From Bacteroidaceae bacterium (GTDB lineage Bacteria > Bacteroidota > Bacteroidia > Bacteroidales > Bacteroidaceae): 43,663 nt of DNA. Below the pieces are notes generated by a model. That model was not told the DNA's origin, did no database searches, and saw only the letters and a list, made by a program, of their open reading frames with translations. The stretch lies in NCBI GenBank assembly GCA_017936265.1, contig JAGBFX010000036.1, positions 1 to 43,663 of the forward strand, written 5' to 3'. Both the position numbers and the translations under genes were made by a program. Positions 8,772 through 17,367 of this stretch are shown here, one piece after another. Positions within the stretch are counted from its first letter, which is position 1. Every line of letters begins with the position of its first letter.

Positions 8772-10010
8772 TTATCTCACTTTCAGTTTCATGAACCAGC
8801 TCTCGTTGAATGTTATGCCAAGGTTGATTCTGAAATAGTTCTCGGCAATCATACTTGCCGATTTCGGCTCCATGTGTATGAACTGCCCCGAAAGATGCAG
8901 TGTGGCATGGCTGTTCCTGTTGTTGCCGTTGATGAACGGTAGCGATATACCTGCGCTGACACCGTACTCCTCGCACCCTTTTCTTCCCTCTATTTCTGTG
9001 TATGGCTGTGCATAGTAGGCTCCGGCTCTGTAGGTAATCATCTTGAATATGTTGTTCGACAATGTGGCCGGTGCATATTCGGCGCCGATTGATACCTTGC
9101 TCCTGTCAATGCCCTTGTCAATGCCGAAGAACGATGATGTGCTCCACTGCTGCAGGGTGTAGTCGGCTCCTATCTTCAATCTATTGTTGTATGTATATGT
9201 AAAGCCGATACCATATGTATGTGGCAGGCTGAAACCGCCCTTTATTCTCTCAGTGGTGGTAGAATCCGTTGTTATCTCGGTAATTTTGCCTTTGGCGTTC
9301 ATGTCGTGCCCGAGCGAATATGTGGCGCCGATTACAATGTCGTTCTTCTTGCCCAGTTTGGTCGCATACTGCAATCCGAAATCGACCTTGTAGCTTTTCA
9401 TCGTCACGTTGTATGTGCGGGTGCGGTCGGTGCTGTTCGCAAAGTCAATACCTACCTCATGGGTAATGTCACCGTAGACGTACGACCCCATGACACCTAC
9501 TGAAAGGGATTTTATCGGCTGCCAACCGAGACCGATGTATGGCTGGTATATGCCGCCTGTTCCGCTGTATTTGTTCGTACTGGCATGGTTGGTGCCATTG
9601 TTCGATGTGTTGCTGAACGAGTAGCCGACATTAGAGTATGGCAGAAAACCTGCCGACATGCCAAGGTTCTTGCGAATCCTGAACTGTACCGCTACATAAT
9701 CGAAACTGGCATTCTTGGCATTTATCTTCTTGTTCCCCTCCTTGAAATTCACGTTCTGTAACGAGAAGCCAGCCTCAAAAAGCATTGTCAGGGTGTCGGC
9801 CTGTGCAAACGATGCCGGGTTCAGTATATTTATGTATCCGTTGCTGCGGAGTCCGTAGCCCAGACCGCCCATCTGTCTGTTTACGCCCAGGCTCTGGTCC
9901 GACAGCAGTCCGACGCCGTAACGTGAATACGGCGAATTGCTGCCATTGTCCGCATATGAGCATGTTATGGCAAACAGCATTGCAATGAGTGCGAATATCT
10001 TTTTATTCAT
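8772..10010 (-). CDS. Outer-membrane beta-barrel protein (FadL/OmpP1-like outline)
   Basis: 412 residues with a signal peptide (MNKKIFALIAMLFAITCSYA). The start of the mature protein (SPYSRYGVGLLSDQ, then QMGGLGYGLRSNGYINILNP and ASFAQADT) is a hallmark of a conserved Bacteroidetes outer-membrane family distantly like FadL/OmpP1. It is followed by alternating beta strands ending with FNESWFMKLKVR, a barrel-like terminus. It may move hydrophobic molecules or be structural; the substrate is unknown. It overlaps the coaX stop codon by 8 bases, so translation is probably coupled. Confidence 0.8.
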   Translation of the reverse strand: MNKKIFALIAMLFAITCSYADNGSNSPYSRYGVGLLSDQSLGVNRQMGGLGYGLRSNGYINILNPASFAQADTLTMLFEAGFSLQNVNFKEGNKKINAKNASFDYVAVQFRIRKNLGMSAGFLPYSNVGYSFSNTSNNGTNHASTNKYSGTGGIYQPYIGLGWQPIKSLSVGVMGSYVYGDITHEVGIDFANSTDRTRTYNVTMKSYKVDFGLQYATKLGKKNDIVIGATYSLGHDMNAKGKITEITTDSTTTERIKGGFSLPHTYGIGFTYTYNNRLKIGADYTLQQWSTSSFFGIDKGIDRSKVSIGAEYAPATLSNNIFKMITYRAGAYYAQPYTEIEGRKGCEEYGVSAGISLPFINGNNRNSHATLHLSGQFIHMEPKSASMIAENYFRINLGITFNESWFMKLKVR

Positions 10011-10731
10011 TATAGTAGTCCTGTAAAATACAATTCAATCCTTTGGCAACTAAATATTTGTCTGCAAAGATGCTACTTTTTATGCTATTTTTCAAAGATT
10101 TTTCATCTCCGCCCGTTAAAAAAACCAAAACGTCGCCATATTTTTCTCTGTATTCGGTGATGTAACCTTCAATCTCATGGCAAATCCCTCTTATTACTCC
10201 GCTCCGGATAGCCGTTTCGGTGTCATGCCCCATAACCGGTGTCTCGCCCTCCTTCTCTATGAGTGGCAGGCGGCTCGTGTAGTCATGAAGTGCCATCAGA
10301 CGCATCTTTATTCCCGGTGAAATGTTGCCGCCGCGGTAGTGTCCGCGTCTGTCTACAAAATCAATGGTAATGGCGCTCCCGCAGTCAATGACAAGCATGT
10401 CATGTCCCGGAGCCTCGTTCCAGGCACCTGTCGCTGCCGCAAGCCTGTCGCTGCCCAGGGTGTGTGGCGTGCTGTAGTCTATGCTCAGTGGAGTGGGTGT
10501 CTCGCTATTGAACCATAGCACCGGGCATCCAAGTATCCCGAACTCCTTTCTTGCGGCATCATCAAGGTCTATGACCGATGATACTATTATCTTCTCAATC
10601 TCGAATTCCTTGTTCCACTCACTCAGGATTCCGGATGTTCCGTTGTTCCTCCGTGAATGTAGGACAAGCTGTTTTCCATTGAATAGATAGTACTTCGAAC
10701 TGTTGTTTCCTATGTCTACAATAAGGTTCAA
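10003..10731 (-). CDS. coaX: Type III pantothenate kinase CoaX
   Basis: 242 residues, first committed step of coenzyme A synthesis (phosphorylates pantothenate). Family motifs are present in order: D6-I-G-N9 (phosphate loop), G-S-D-R at about 93-96, D-C-G-S-A-I-T-I-D at about 116-124 and G-G-N-I-S-P-G at about 134-140. I start it at a TTG codon (10731), because this gives MNLIVDIGNN, placing the catalytic Asp at residue 6 as in characterised type III enzymes. The longer frame's TTG at 10758 lies inside the promoter -7 element and cannot be in the message. ATT at 10734 is the only close alternative. First gene of the envelope operon. Confidence 0.9.
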   Translation of the reverse strand: MNLIVDIGNNSSKYYLFNGKQLVLHSRRNNGTSGILSEWNKEFEIEKIIVSSVIDLDDAARKEFGILGCPVLWFNSETPTPLSIDYSTPHTLGSDRLAAATGAWNEAPGHDMLVIDCGSAITIDFVDRRGHYRGGNISPGIKMRLMALHDYTSRLPLIEKEGETPVMGHDTETAIRSGVIRGICHEIEGYITEYREKYGDVLVFLTGGDEKSLKNSIKSSIFADKYLVAKGLNCILQDYYNE

Positions 10732-10755
10732 AATCGGGTGCTTGAAATTTTTTTG

Positions 10756-10763
10756 CAAAGATA
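10756..10763 (-). promoter_or_regulatory. -7 element of the coaX operon
   Basis: TATCTTTG on the minus strand (10763-10756), a perfect TAnnTTTG. Transcription would start near 10750, leaving a leader of about 18 bases before the TTG start at 10731. The -33 region is occupied by the palindrome TGAAGTAAACTTCA (10784-10797), a possible operator. Confidence 0.65.
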
Positions 10764-11003: not shown

Positions 11004-11034
11004 TTTGTTGCTTACGGCGGAAATTGTATCTTTG
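11004..11034 (+). promoter_or_regulatory. Consensus promoter of the DUF4105 gene
   Basis: TTTG (11004-11007), 19 bases, TATCTTTG (11027-11034): an exact Bacteroidetes promoter. Transcription would begin near 11041, about 26 bases before the GTG start. Confidence 0.75.
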
Positions 11035-11066: not shown

Positions 11067-12248
11067 GTGAAAAGAATATTGTTACTGTTGCTGGCGTGTA
11101 TGCTTGTCGCAGCTCCAATGAGGGCGGATGAGGCACGTTTCAGCCTTATTACATGCTCTCCCGGCGATGAGGCCTATTCCCTTTTCGGACATACGGCATT
11201 GAGGTATGTCGATGAGGAGAGTGGGGTTGACAAGGTCTACAATTACGGCTATTTCAGTTTCGATACTCCCAATTTCGTGTGGCGTTTCATTCTTGGCCAG
11301 ACCGATTATCTTGTGGCTTCGATACCATTTGAATATTTCATTCCCGAGTATGTGGAGCGTGGCTCTATGGTAGTGGAGCAGGTACTCAACCTCACTCCGT
11401 CTCAGGTAAGGAGTCTATACCGTCTTCTCGAAGAGAACTGCCGTCTCCGGAACAGGGTCTACCGCTATAACTATTTCTATGCCAACTGTACCACTAAGGC
11501 CCGTGACAAGTTCCTGGAATCGCTCGGCAACGGGTGCAGTATCGTGTACATGCAGCCCGAGGTTCCTCTGCCCACATTCAGGGAGGCTCTCCGTTCAATG
11601 ACTGCTTCCCATCCATGGTACTCGTTCGGCATAGACCTGCTCATGGGTTCCGACGTTGATGAGCCTGCCACTCCCGAACAGTTGCAGTTCATACCCGCTA
11701 ATCTCATGAAAGACCTCGGAAATGCATGTATTACTGATGCCGATGGCGTTAGCGTGCCCGCTGTCAAGAAAACCAATATCCTTGCCCGGGAGAACAAGCC
11801 TGTTGCCACACGCAATAATCTTACCCCGTTCAATGCTTCGCTGCTGCTGTTGCTGTTCACTTTCATTGTCATGCTGTGCGAGCTTCGCAGTAAAAGGACA
11901 TTCTGGGGCTACGACTTTGTGCTCATGACGGTGCAGGGGCTTGGAGGGTGCCTTTTGCTGTTCATGGCGCTCTGCTCCGAGCATCCGGCTGTCGATGCCA
12001 ATTTCGTGATGCTCCTTGTAAACCCGCTTGCACTTATCCTGATGCCGTTTCTCATATACCGCATAATCAAGCATAAGTCACTTCAGATAGCATGGGTGCA
12101 GGTAGCCTTTGTGCTGCTCTTTTTCCTTTCGGCACTCTTAGGCCTGCAGTGTTATCCCGCACCGCTCTACTTCTGCGCGGCTGCAATACTTTCACGCTCA
12201 TTGTTCCACATATATAAAGAGAGAATATGCGAATTAAATATTGTCTGA
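11067..12248 (+). CDS. DUF4105 (Lnb N-terminal periplasmic domain) membrane protein
   Basis: 393 residues from a GTG start (11067); an in-frame TAG lies immediately upstream, and this start gives a signal peptide (MKRILLLLLACMLVAAPMRA). Residues about 22-240 form the DUF4105 domain: RFSLITCSPGDEAYSLFGHT with H42, YNYGYFSFDTPNFVWRFILG, and YFYANCTTKARD with C141. H42 and C141 fall in motifs resembling the His and Cys of permuted papain/NlpC-P60 hydrolases, so hydrolase activity is possible but inferred. Residues about 255-390 form five membrane helices. The gene overlaps the next by 22 bases, so the two proteins are likely made together. Confidence 0.85.
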   Translation: MKRILLLLLACMLVAAPMRADEARFSLITCSPGDEAYSLFGHTALRYVDEESGVDKVYNYGYFSFDTPNFVWRFILGQTDYLVASIPFEYFIPEYVERGSMVVEQVLNLTPSQVRSLYRLLEENCRLRNRVYRYNYFYANCTTKARDKFLESLGNGCSIVYMQPEVPLPTFREALRSMTASHPWYSFGIDLLMGSDVDEPATPEQLQFIPANLMKDLGNACITDADGVSVPAVKKTNILARENKPVATRNNLTPFNASLLLLLFTFIVMLCELRSKRTFWGYDFVLMTVQGLGGCLLLFMALCSEHPAVDANFVMLLVNPLALILMPFLIYRIIKHKSLQIAWVQVAFVLLFFLSALLGLQCYPAPLYFCAAAILSRSLFHIYKERICELNIV

Positions 12249-13768
12249 CACTTCTTCTGCTGTGCGTGTTCCATGTATCTGCGCAGCAAAAAATGAATAC
12301 TCCGAAACTCTATCTCAACATCACTGTCGACCAGTTGCGCAGTGACTTCCTCTATGAGTTCAGCGAACTCTATTGCGACGGTGGTTTCAAGCGGCTGCTC
12401 TCGGGGGGCAAGGTGTTCCCCAATGCCTATTATCCTTTCGAGAACATCGACCGTGCATCGGCTGCGGCCGCGCTTGCGTCGGGTACGATGCCCTATGTCA
12501 ACGGTATTGTAGGCGAGCGTTGGCTCGACCGTTCATCCCTTCGCATAGTGAATTGTGTCGAGGACCACAAACATCAGGGTGTCTACACCAATTCGCCAAT
12601 GTCTCCCGCGAGGCTCAAGGCCATTACGGTGACCGATGAGATGAAGCGTGCCACGCGCGGCAACTCAATCATATGTTCAATAGCTCCCGACGAGGATGCG
12701 GCGGTGCTGGCAGGCGGGCATGCTGCCGACCATGTGCTATGGAAGAACAACTCCACAGGTTACTGGTGCAGTTCCAGCTACTATGGTCTCTATCCCCAGT
12801 GGGCAGCCGACAAGAACAAGGAGATTCGCGGGCGTTCAAGCAAATGGGTGCCTTTGTTCCCAACCGAACAGTACAATAACTTCGGCGAGGAGGCTCCCGA
12901 TGCATTCTCCTACTCATTCAACGGTCTCAAGGAGATACGCACATACAAGACCACGGCCTGTATCAACGATGAGGTCAACGAGATGGCTAAGGCTTTCCTT
13001 GAGGGGACGCTAGCCGGCAGGGATGATATTGCCGACTGTCTGTCGCTTACATACTATGCCGGTAACTACAACGGCAATTCAATGGAGGAACGCCCCATCG
13101 AAATTCAGGATATGTATGCGCGTCTTGACAGGAACATTGCCGACCTGCTCGATTATGTCGACAAGCTGATAGGGCTCGACAATGTCGTGGTTTCCGTTGC
13201 CTCAACGGGCTATGTGATAGAGAGCAGCGAGGACGGCGCGAAGTACCGTCTCCCCTCGGGCAAGATATATATGGACAGGATAAAAGGTCTGCTTAATGTC
13301 TATCTGACGGCACAATTCGGTAAGGGCGATTTTGTAGAGGGAGTGTATGGCAGTCAGCTATACCTGAACCGCAAAACAATCGAGAACCTGAAATTGGATA
13401 AACTGGATGTCGTTTCGCATACTGTCGAGTTCCTGAAGTCCATCGAGGGCGTTGAAGATGTGTTTACTATTTACCGTCTGGGAGGTATGCTCAGTCCTGA
13501 AATGCAGTATGTTAAGAACGGGTACAACCCTTCAAGTTCGGGCGATGTGTGGCTGCGCCTGATGCCTGGTTGGAAGGTCATTACCGATGTGGCTTCGGAG
13601 TCAAATACCATATTCCGCACGCCTGTAATGTTCCCGATAATAATCTATGGTTGCGGCACACAGCCAAGAGTGATAGATGACATGACTCCGGCAAGCATCC
13701 TTGCTGCCGAAGTGGCACGTATGCTCCACATTCGCCGTCCCAATGACAATAGCCTCAGGGTGTTCTGA
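12227..13768 (+). CDS. PafA-like alkaline-phosphatase-superfamily protein lacking catalytic residues
   Basis: 513 residues with a signal peptide (MRIKYCLTLLLLCVFHVSAQ). The fold signature of the PafA/NPP branch is clear: NITVDQLRSDFLYEF, GGFKRLLSGG, ASGTMPYVNGIVGERW, AGGHAADHVLW, IEIQDMYARLDRNIADLLDY. But the active site is missing: the nucleophile Thr position reads R76, the Lys/Arg pair (K162/R164 in PafA) reads P154/E156, the D-x-x-x-H metal motif reads N280-YNG-N284, the ADHG motif reads ASTGY (325-329), and the late metal His is absent. Only the first metal Asp (D35) remains. Length is normal and the frame intact, so this looks like a maintained pseudoenzyme rather than a decaying gene. 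It is coupled to the DUF4105 gene. Confidence 0.85.
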   Translation: MRIKYCLTLLLLCVFHVSAQQKMNTPKLYLNITVDQLRSDFLYEFSELYCDGGFKRLLSGGKVFPNAYYPFENIDRASAAAALASGTMPYVNGIVGERWLDRSSLRIVNCVEDHKHQGVYTNSPMSPARLKAITVTDEMKRATRGNSIICSIAPDEDAAVLAGGHAADHVLWKNNSTGYWCSSSYYGLYPQWAADKNKEIRGRSSKWVPLFPTEQYNNFGEEAPDAFSYSFNGLKEIRTYKTTACINDEVNEMAKAFLEGTLAGRDDIADCLSLTYYAGNYNGNSMEERPIEIQDMYARLDRNIADLLDYVDKLIGLDNVVVSVASTGYVIESSEDGAKYRLPSGKIYMDRIKGLLNVYLTAQFGKGDFVEGVYGSQLYLNRKTIENLKLDKLDVVSHTVEFLKSIEGVEDVFTIYRLGGMLSPEMQYVKNGYNPSSSGDVWLRLMPGWKVITDVASESNTIFRTPVMFPIIIYGCGTQPRVIDDMTPASILAAEVARMLHIRRPNDNSLRVF

Positions 13769-13851: not shown

Positions 13852-14145
13852 TTAGTATGATTTCTCGATGCTCCATACAAAGGCTCTGAGTCCGAGTTGG
13901 GGCGAATCCTCATCGAGTGCCTTTATCTCCTTGAGGATGTTGTCTACATGCTTGTCCTCGACAACGGTAATGATTGAACCGCACATAGAGGGCCAGGCGT
14001 GTGTGCCGTAGTGGGGCTCTCCGCTGACGCTACCGCGTCCCTGCATATGGTCGAAGAAAGAGAAACCGCGACAGTTGTTGTGCGTCAGGATGTCAATGAC
14101 AGCCTCCTTATGTGAAATGTCAAAAGTGATGAATACGCTTTTCAT
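13852..14145 (-). CDS. PII-like small regulatory protein
   Basis: 97 residues. It has the beta-alpha-beta-beta-alpha-beta outline of PII-like proteins: MKSVFITFDISHKEAVIDIL (strand and helix), CRGFSFFDHMQGRGS, a loop with GEPHYGTHAWPSMCGS, SIITVVEDKHVDNILKEIKA and LGLRAFVWSIEKSY. The usual PII T-loop is replaced by the Trp/His/Cys-containing GTHAWPSMC segment. It follows the RND pump gene by 54 bases, with a hairpin between. PII-like proteins (for example DUF3240) also sit beside heavy-metal RND pumps in Proteobacteria, so a sensor role for the pump or its substrate is plausible but inferred. No separate promoter is evident. Confidence 0.7.
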   Translation of the reverse strand: MKSVFITFDISHKEAVIDILTHNNCRGFSFFDHMQGRGSVSGEPHYGTHAWPSMCGSIITVVEDKHVDNILKEIKALDEDSPQLGLRAFVWSIEKSY

Positions 14146-14160
14146 ATTTGCTGATTTTGT

Positions 14161-14190
14161 ATTCTCTGCGGGGTACGCCCCGCAGAGAAT
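14161..14190 (-). terminator. Strong hairpin between RND pump gene and PII-like gene
   Basis: Arms 14161-14173 and 14178-14190 pair over 13 bp (GCGGGG core) around a four-base loop. There is no clear T run on the minus strand, so it may be a partial terminator or attenuator that lowers expression of the PII-like gene relative to the pump, or an RNA-stabilising 3' structure. Confidence 0.65.
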
Positions 14191-14199
14191 ATATTGTTA

Positions 14200-17100
14200 T
14201 TACTTATCCTTATGCTTTAGCTGCTCCTCCTGCTTGTGCTCCTTCCAGTATTCGTTGAGCTCGCGCTGTTTCCTTATTCTCCTGCGCTTGTTCTTAACAC
14301 CGTTTGCAGCGAATATACTGTACATAGCTGGCACGTAAATCATGGTCATGATAGTAGATATCGTAAGACCACCGATTACGGCAATACCGAGCGGACGCCA
14401 CATCTCGGCACCTACACCCTGGCTCACGGCCATAGGAATCATACCGAGGATTGTGGTACAGGTTGTCATGAGCACCGGACGCAGACGGCTCTTGGCTGCA
14501 CCCACGCAGGCTGCAATGATACCCAGACCACGTTCACGCAACAGCATGATGTAGTCGATGAGCACGATACCGTTCTTCACGACCATACCGATAAGCATGA
14601 TACCGCCGAGCATTGACATGATGTTCAGGTGAGAACCGGTAATGAAGAGTCCGAGCAATACACCGCTCAATGCAAACACTACCGAGAACATTAGGATGAA
14701 CGGATAGGTCAGTGACTCGAACTGTGATGCCATCACGATGAACACAAGTACAAGGATGATGATGGCAAGCTGTCCAAGGTCGCGGTTCGACTCCTGCTGG
14801 TCCTCATAAGAACCGGCAACCTGAATGGCGATACCTGTGGGAATCTCCATCTGCTCTATGATGCTCTGACCATATGTCACACCGTCACTGAGCGCGGCAC
14901 CTGCAGCCATTACGGCATCAACGGTAACGATACGCTCACGGTCCTTACGCTCGATGGTAGGAGGCATGTCATTCATGACGACCTTACCTACCTCCCTGAG
15001 GCTTATCAGACCATTGCTGCCTATGAGCTTGATGTTCTCTATGTCATTGATGCTCTGACGTGCCTCGGGGTTGTAGCGCACCTTTACGTCATACTCCTCA
15101 CCGTCCTCGCGGTAGTATGTCGCTAGGGCGCCGTTGTAACGGTTGCGGATGTATGTGGCAGCAGTGCTCAGGTTCAGTCCGTGCATAGCCAATTTCTCGC
15201 GGTCGAATTCTACACGGTACTGTGGCTGGTAATCGCTTCGGCTGATGTTAACCTGAGTGATGAGGTCGCTCTTCTTCATCTCATTTGCAAACTCTTTTGC
15301 AAGGCGGTCTGTCTCTTTGAAGTCGTATCCGTAGATTTCGAATGTAGCCATACTCTGACCACCCATGCCTCCGCCCTGTCCGGTAGAGATGTTCGACTTG
15401 GCAATCTCGGGGAACTCCTTCACGTCGGCGCGCATCTGGTCGCAAATCTCATCGATAGACAGTTCACGCTGGTCGGACGGCACGAACGACATGTTGAAGC
15501 TGATGATGTGTGAACCGTTGTCGCTGAGTGAGGCGAAAGTATTGTTCTCATCGGCCTGACCCACAGTGAAGTTACATGCCTTTATGTCTTTACCGTAACG
15601 CTCTCTCCAGATGTTTGTCAGCTTCAGAGCTATATCTCTTGATGTATCGATGCGTGTACCTACAGGCAACTCAATCTTCGCACTTGCGCGGGCGCTGTCA
15701 TTTGCAGGGAAGAACTCGCTCTTGATACCCTTTGCGCAGAGAAGGCTGACTGCGAACAGGCCGAAGCAGCCTGCAAGTACTGTCCATCGGTGGCGTACGG
15801 CCCAGTTGATGATTGCTGCGTAGCCGTTGTCGATAGCATCGAGTACCTTCTGGATAGGCCTGTATATAAGGAGGAAAATCTTGCTCTGCTTCTTCTGCAA
15901 CTTGAGCATCTTGGCACACATCATAGGTGTCAGTGTCAATGAAGCCACAAGAGAGATGAGCATGATGATACACATCATCCATCCGAGCTGTTTGAAGAGC
16001 ACGCCGGCCATACCGGTAACCATTGTCAGCGGGAAGAACACGGCGAACATTGTCAATGTAGATGCCATAACCGATACACCCACCTCATTCGTTCCGTGGA
16101 TAGCGGCGTTTTGCGGGCTTGAACCACGCTCGATGTGTGTTGTCACGTTCTCGAGCACCACGATGGCGTCATCCACAACCGAACCGATAGCGATACTCAA
16201 ACAAGAGAGTGAAATCATGTTGATTGAACCGCCTGTCGCATACAGGTAGATGAATGATGCGATGAGCGAGAACGGAATTGTGATGGCGATGATGATAGTC
16301 GCCCTCCAGCGTCCGAGGAAGATGAACACCACGAGCACCACGAACACAAGCGCGTCCATGATTGTTCCCGAAAGGGTATCAACTGTCTGAAGAATGTTTT
16401 CTGATGTGTCGACGATGATGTCAATCTTTACGTCCGAAGGCAAACGCTTCTGAAGCTCGGGAAGAGCATCGCGTATAGCCTGTGAGATAGCGACGGAGTT
16501 ACCTCCTGACTGCTTCTGTACGATAATCATCGCACCCTGCTGGCCGTCGGTGTATGTCTCCTGTGCGCGCTCCTGCACGTTGTCGTGTATTGTAGCGACA
16601 TCCTTGAGGAACACGTTCACACCGTTGAAGTTGCCCACAACGATGTCATACATCTCTTTGGGGTCGCTGAACTCGCCCTCGACACGCAGTGCGTATGTGT
16701 TGTTACCGATGTCGAATGTACCGCCGGGAATATTGCGGTTCTCGGCGCCGATGGCAGCACTTACCGACTCTACCGGTATGTTGTATGCCTCCATCTTGGC
16801 AGGGTCCATGTAGACGTTGATTTCGCGCTCAGGCGCACCCGATATTGATACTGTTCCCACACCGTCGATACGTGCAAGCGGGTTTACCACGTTGTCGTCA
16901 AGAATCTTGTACAGCGCTGCCTGGCTCTCCTCAGCCTTTACCGAAAGCATCATGATAGGAATCATATCGGTAGAGAACTTGAAGATAATCGGGTTGTTGG
17001 CATCATCGGGCAGAGCCGATGCAACCATGTCGAGCTTGTCGCGTACATCATTCGTGAGGTCATCGATGTCATATCCGAACTCGAACTCGAGTGTGATTAC

Positions 17101-17367
17101 CGATACGTTCTCACGTGAGTTACTTGTAATATGCTTGAGATGCTCAACAGAGTTGAGTGTGTTCTCCAACGGACGCGATACGTTGTTCTCGATATCCTCG
17201 GCACTCGCACCGTTGTAATATGTAAACACCATAATGGTGTTTGTCTCAATGTCCGGCATCAGGTCGATGGGGAGTTTTGAGAATGAAAAGACACCAAAAA
17301 GAGCAATCGCCAAAAAACAGAGCGATGTCATAATCGGTTTCTTTACCGCACTTTCATATATACTCAT
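14200..17367 (-). CDS. RND efflux pump inner-membrane transporter (HAE-1/AcrB type)
   Basis: 1055 residues, the normal length. It starts MSIYESAVKKPIMTSLCFLA, the usual first cytoplasmic segment and membrane helix. Two homologous halves each have a large periplasmic loop and a set of membrane helices. The proton-relay residues are present: D399-D400 in SIAIGSVVDDAIVVLENV and K931 in GMVVKNGIVLIDY, followed by the SRLRPVLMT segment. These are typical of drug/hydrophobic-compound pumps of the HAE-1 family rather than metal pumps. The C-terminal tail is very basic and acidic (KNKRRRIRKQRELNEYWKEH). It is encoded 32 bases after the membrane-fusion gene in the tetR-tolC-mfp-rnd operon. Confidence 0.95.
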   Translation of the reverse strand: MSIYESAVKKPIMTSLCFLAIALFGVFSFSKLPIDLMPDIETNTIMVFTYYNGASAEDIENNVSRPLENTLNSVEHLKHITSNSRENVSVITLEFEFGYDIDDLTNDVRDKLDMVASALPDDANNPIIFKFSTDMIPIMMLSVKAEESQAALYKILDDNVVNPLARIDGVGTVSISGAPEREINVYMDPAKMEAYNIPVESVSAAIGAENRNIPGGTFDIGNNTYALRVEGEFSDPKEMYDIVVGNFNGVNVFLKDVATIHDNVQERAQETYTDGQQGAMIIVQKQSGGNSVAISQAIRDALPELQKRLPSDVKIDIIVDTSENILQTVDTLSGTIMDALVFVVLVVFIFLGRWRATIIIAITIPFSLIASFIYLYATGGSINMISLSCLSIAIGSVVDDAIVVLENVTTHIERGSSPQNAAIHGTNEVGVSVMASTLTMFAVFFPLTMVTGMAGVLFKQLGWMMCIIMLISLVASLTLTPMMCAKMLKLQKKQSKIFLLIYRPIQKVLDAIDNGYAAIINWAVRHRWTVLAGCFGLFAVSLLCAKGIKSEFFPANDSARASAKIELPVGTRIDTSRDIALKLTNIWRERYGKDIKACNFTVGQADENNTFASLSDNGSHIISFNMSFVPSDQRELSIDEICDQMRADVKEFPEIAKSNISTGQGGGMGGQSMATFEIYGYDFKETDRLAKEFANEMKKSDLITQVNISRSDYQPQYRVEFDREKLAMHGLNLSTAATYIRNRYNGALATYYREDGEEYDVKVRYNPEARQSINDIENIKLIGSNGLISLREVGKVVMNDMPPTIERKDRERIVTVDAVMAAGAALSDGVTYGQSIIEQMEIPTGIAIQVAGSYEDQQESNRDLGQLAIIILVLVFIVMASQFESLTYPFILMFSVVFALSGVLLGLFITGSHLNIMSMLGGIMLIGMVVKNGIVLIDYIMLLRERGLGIIAACVGAAKSRLRPVLMTTCTTILGMIPMAVSQGVGAEMWRPLGIAVIGGLTISTIMTMIYVPAMYSIFAANGVKNKRRRIRKQRELNEYWKEHKQEEQLKHKDK

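Follow-up and report, generated by a model that had tools for sequence, protein, structure and literature searches.

Why would a member of the Bacteroidaceae keep a gene for a PafA-like phosphatase that has lost its active site, and keep it overlapping the gene for a membrane protein? Such a pair is found in the window, that is, the whole stretch of DNA that was analysed (43,663 nucleotides), with the following layout:

8772..10010, minus strand: BamG family outer-membrane assembly protein, divergent neighbour (context only; NF053685, 338 bits, cut-off 250)
10003..10758, minus strand: coaX (type III pantothenate kinase), divergent neighbour of lnb (context only; profile matches)
11004..11034, plus strand: Bacteroides-type promoter match, TTTG-N19-TANNTTTG (consensus match only)
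11067..12248, plus strand: ORF A, assigned as an Lnb-family lipoprotein N-acyltransferase by Pfam and NCBIfam profile searches
12227..12248, plus strand: 22-base overlap of ORF A and ORF B (22 bases in 26 and 16 bases in 4 of the 30 genus loci read)
12227..13768, plus strand: ORF B, catalytically dead PafA-like (alkaline phosphatase superfamily) protein with a signal peptide, predicted periplasmic
13271..13318, plus strand: codons of the dead protein's helix 349-364 (MDRIKGLLNVYLTAQF), which has turned from charged, as in active PafA, to apolar and conserved
13852-17367, minus strand: PG0541-family P-II-like protein and a 1055-aa RND-type transporter, convergent, 3' of the pair

The original prediction had placed the two genes, overlapping by 22 bases, behind one consensus promoter and had the dead protein co-transcribed with a conserved membrane partner. 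The overlap was confirmed in the window and in its genus, and co-transcription is supported as well. The promoter consensus is matched 3 times in the window, against 0.76 expected, and the predicted match, which ends 32 bases ahead of ORF A, was found again.

The partner had been taken for a possible periplasmic hydrolase. Judging by its Pfam domains and its motifs, the first gene instead encodes an Lnb-family lipoprotein N-acyltransferase whose His/Cys dyad is intact. ORF A consists of a signal sequence, a periplasmic domain of the permuted NlpC/P60-like type, which carries H42 and C141, and a five-helix membrane domain. It matches Lnb_N (E 6.8e-27) and 5TMH_Lnb (E 1.4e-29), both above cut-off, with scores of 94.6 and 103.4 bits against PF13387 and PF25221 (cut-offs 22.2 and 25.2). 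The NCBIfam Lnb equivalog NF051878 was matched at E 7e-109 with 364.3 bits, which lies below its curated cut-off of 550 bits, and ORF A is therefore filed under the Pfam Lnb family and not under the equivalog. At the equivalent gene position, the proteins of B. fragilis (L151, 640 bits) and B. faecis (L181, 685 bits) pass this cut-off, while that of P. distasonis (L169, 379 bits) also falls below it. H42 and C141 are invariant across 22 aligned Lnb proteins, as expected for the permuted NlpC/P60 group. Lnb (DUF4105) was reportedly identified by Armbruster et al. in 2024 as the lipoprotein N-acyltransferase of Bacteroides, the missing enzyme for the third acyl chain. Lnb adds this third chain to lipoproteins, the same reaction as that catalysed by Lnt, the apolipoprotein N-acyltransferase. 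The genome of the window, which is 87% complete, contains one Lnb_N match and no match to Lnt. In PMC12994826, the permuted NlpC/P60 group is described as using a His and a Cys, and DUF4105 within that group is named Lnb; P. gingivalis is described as being without Lnt in PMC13103446.

The claim that the second gene encodes a dead PafA-like protein was borne out. ORF B keeps 1 of the 10 PafA active-site residues (D38); the nucleophile T79, N100, K162, R164 and the metal site are lost, and no intact catalytic residues were found. Its fold places it in the PafA-type alkaline phosphatase superfamily, where its matches include the lipid-handling autotaxin, ENPP6 and ENPP7. Against the PafA model NF042991 (cut-off 650), it scores 276.9 bits, compared with 738.8 for a true PafA of the same family. 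B-like proteins were gathered from 150 relatives (119 matched), from the best 80 named loci of a longer list, a sample biased toward genomes possessing the gene, and from other orders of the class (18 proteins). Two copies of the window (L001 and L002) were left out of the counts, and the loci examined do not extend to nine same-genus genomes with a match, nor to G087, G112, G114, G123 and G137. A homologue was called linked when a same-strand Lnb was located no more than 400 bases upstream of it. The losses are common to the whole set of 153 linked or fused homologues examined, none of which keeps more than three of the ten residues (one in 98, two in 54 and three in 1), with D38 retained in every case. 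Among the unlinked proteins, the full set of ten residues is present in 29 (11 from relatives and 18/18 from other orders), and zero to five are present in the other 27. In an 88-row tree made by a quick method, a single clade of 76 rows (SH-aLRT 100) gathers the dead proteins and separates them from active PafA. The pseudoenzyme family is old and constrained.

The pairing itself is conserved. Lnb was found directly upstream of the dead gene in 151 loci (30 of the genus, window included, 48 of other relatives, 72 of the best-80 named loci and 1 further locus of the order), and the two are fused in one frame in 2 more. ORF B has a match in 38 of the 43 other genomes of the genus, and all 29 of those fetched are Lnb-linked. 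The overlap measures 22 bases in 26/30 genus loci and 16 bases in 4/30 when the window is included (25 and 4 without it), and 17 of the 48 other linked relatives show a 4-base overlap. In the window's family, beside the genus, the dead gene adjoins Lnb or is fused with it in 41/47 sampled genomes; the rest have active PafA only (G065, G086 and G090), no match (G063 and G088) or lie outside the examination (G087). A class survey of 295 genomes, among the matches listed, revealed Lnb and the dead gene to be adjacent in 8 of 10 Bacteroidales genomes with an Lnb match, whereas in other orders adjacency was seen in none of the 26 genomes with both matches listed (one of these has a second, unlisted match).

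Outside the window's genus, the usual Bacteroidales order is Lnb-pseudoPafA-SecA. SecA lies within 1500 bases 3' of the dead gene in 116/121 linked loci (48/48 relatives, 67/72 of the best-80 named loci and 1/1 further locus), and two of the five loci where it was not found are too short to judge. Pfam scans of three of these downstream proteins confirmed them as SecA. In the genus, no SecA was found beside the pair in the 4 judgeable loci (three and the window itself); since the 22- or 16-base overlap is kept there, the pair has outlived its tie to SecA. Six loci carry the dead gene followed by SecA without Lnb upstream, of which at least L179 and L183 are cut short at that place. In a single case, an Lnb-less locus of a Dysgonamonadaceae MAG (L180:3586-6584), LspA lies upstream of the dead gene, with an unannotated ORF of 167 aa between them. 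An arrest-peptide role upstream of SecA was set aside because the conserved C-terminus of the dead protein resembles that of PafA. Relatives of BamG were found in 40 other fetched loci and those of coaX in 34, including B. fragilis L151; their recurrence near the pair hints at a larger envelope locus.

Lnb and the dead protein also occur as one polypeptide, of 924 aa in L076 and 926 aa in L096. In the genus of L076, the in-frame fusion, with no internal stops, was found in 20/21 genomes at 46 to 100% identity, the exception being G437, where the match covers Lnb only; in the genus of L096, it was found in 2/2 genomes, which are identical. The dead domain is also catalytically dead in the five fusion proteins read. 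At the fusion junctions read, the Lnb membrane domain is followed by an extra hydrophobic segment, the retained signal peptide of the dead protein. If five membrane helices lie behind a periplasmic domain in Lnb, this segment would place the dead domain in the periplasm. The predicted structure of the fusion (pLDDT 83, pTM 0.60) has a poorly predicted linker and gives no reliable arrangement or interface of the halves. The natural fusions suggest a physical complex of the dead protein with Lnb.

What the dead fold is kept for can be narrowed from its own residues. That it is a decaying PafA gene has almost no probability. The catalytic residues are lost and the gene has been cleanly lost in two genera, but the frames are full-length and open, the same losses run order-wide, the median dN/dS in the genus is 0.069 (12 pairs with usable dS of 435), lower than the 0.144 of Lnb (9 pairs), and none of the genus loci read showed a decaying copy. 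On the losses common to 153/153 homologues and this dN/dS, decay was rejected; the gene is under purifying selection, and the original prediction of a maintained, secreted pseudoenzyme is supported. The strong constraint and the many invariant residues could also mean that the protein is an enzyme whose new active site lies at another place on the fold, which is very improbable: the positions newly conserved relative to active PafA (L37, Y277, G118, T121, L355, N357, Y359, F402 and W449, with R351) are mostly structural or apolar, and no new polar cluster is evident in the sequence. It had also been proposed that the dead site binds a phosphorylated ligand; binding a phosphorylated or phospholipid ligand without hydrolysis, it might sense or deliver the acyl donor of Lnb or the lysophospholipid product. 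Lnb, as in N-acylation in general, would use a phospholipid donor, and the lipid handlers among the superfamily fold matches fit this reading. However, the metal ligands are gone, and the net charge at the four phosphate-side positions (T79, N100, K162 and R164) passes from +2.00 in 30 active proteins (5tj3 included) to -1.19 in the 153 linked and -1.22 in the 27 unlinked dead proteins. Phosphate binding is unlikely because of this change in charge, and these positions vary within the dead clade, unlike those of a binding site; we regard ligand binding as improbable. In 77/153 linked and 0/27 unlinked dead proteins, position 79 is basic and position 164 acidic, a combination that would suit a salt bridge replacing the metals. 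In helix 349-364, the mean number of charged residues is 4.47 in active and 1.93 in linked dead proteins; after the linked set was thinned to 129 rows, L355 and N357 show no variation and R351 is present in 98%. A new contact surface, facing a partner or the membrane, would most plausibly lie on this helix.

We consider it somewhat probable that the dead protein works in the periplasm in a complex with Lnb, as its adaptor or as a subunit without catalytic function. A competing reading is that the pair is only co-regulated, the dead protein being a general periplasmic envelope factor of the BamG/coaX/Lnb/SecA cluster that acts apart from Lnb, for example on Sec-exported proteins. The position of SecA next to the dead gene, the six loci where SecA follows it without adjacent Lnb, and the recurrence of BamG and coaX nearby are consistent with such a factor, as are 18 genomes of other, deeper Bacteroidales families in which the dead homologue is not beside Lnb (Lnb elsewhere in 12, Lnt without Lnb in 6); there, the dead family predates the Lnb link or has another role. 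Rate covariation also leans toward SecA: the partial correlation of Lnb and the dead protein given SecA is 0.47 (reached in 0/999 permutations), and that of the dead protein and SecA given Lnb is 0.59, so the covariation is not Lnb-specific and is not counted as specific support. The dead protein is not universally required, since in four genomes of two genera in the same family (L212-L215) Lnb is directly followed by SecA and no dead gene was found. Nevertheless, Lnb is the partner in the natural fusions seen, which occur in two lineages, and the window's genus keeps the overlapping pair without SecA; mere co-regulation therefore seems rather unlikely, though it deserves more weight than ligand binding.

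As a subunit or adaptor of Lnb, the dead protein would leave the chemistry to the His/Cys dyad of its partner. The overlapping genes would allow the dead domain to be made in stoichiometric step with Lnb, and it would sit at the inner membrane, on the periplasmic side. There it would most likely either dock or orient the substrate of Lnb, the diacylated apolipoprotein coming from Sec and signal peptidase, or stabilise the active arrangement of Lnb. Docking, to which the gene order (SecA, and LspA once) and the new helix point, is less supported than the general function. More tentatively, and with less than even confidence, the Bacteroidales N-acyltransferase may be a two-component machine, in which an active NlpC/P60-like enzyme works with a dead alkaline-phosphatase-fold domain of an unrelated family. 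This domain would have been recruited from PafA a single time, kept with the enzyme through gene overlap and fused to it on two occasions, and would receive apolipoproteins at the Sec exit.

Both Lnb and PafA are already known; what would be new is a pseudoenzyme partner in lipoprotein maturation. The window's Lnb resembles that of Bacteroides in domain architecture, His/Cys dyad and gene position, but differs in its score (364 bits, against the 550-bit equivalog cut-off). The fold of Lnb is unrelated to that of Lnt. ORF B shares the whole fold, the length and the scaffold motifs of PafA, the phosphate-irrepressible alkaline phosphatase (PDB 5tj3, NF042991), but has lost 9/10 active-site residues and the metal site, has a different gene order and falls in its own clade (76/88 rows). 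As in other pseudoenzyme partners encoded beside an active enzyme, a dead fold under selection is coupled to an enzyme; here, however, the dead member comes from a different fold family than its partner. A literature search revealed no description of a dead PafA family tied to Lnb, nor of a pseudoenzyme partner in lipoprotein maturation, although the original Lnb paper may mention the neighbour; the available parts of the two Lnb accounts (PMC12994826, PMC13103446) do not mention a partner gene. The pairing and fusion of lnb with a well-preserved dead phosphatase suggest a helper in cell envelope building that has so far gone unrecognised. If the dead partner is indeed dedicated to Lnb, half of the system may be overlooked by work on purified Lnb alone, by inhibitors and by structures. 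In gut Bacteroidales, the alkaline-phosphatase annotation of proteins encoded next to lnb is probably wrong, nearly all catalytic residues being gone in those examined. Finally, the conserved lnb-pseudoPafA-secA order, with BamG nearby, also connects export, lipoprotein finishing and outer-membrane assembly in a way that can be tested.

Several further observations concern the surroundings of these genes. Relatives of the P-II-like gene were found in 13/29 and of the RND gene in 16/29 same-genus loci. The deeper dead or half-dead homologues, with 0 to 5 of the 10 residues, are those of L081-L089, L091-L094, L098, L100, L103, L110 and L111, with neighbours such as M14 peptidases and subtilases, and some of them may still have an altered activity. 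In L094, Lnt precedes the dead gene, a small ORF separating the two; Lnb is found elsewhere in the same genome, and we take this linkage as a hint only. In another single case, in a Candidatus Azobacteroides MAG (L114:2873-6557), a sulfatase-family protein of 696 aa (Pfam Sulfatase) is encoded 5' of the dead gene.
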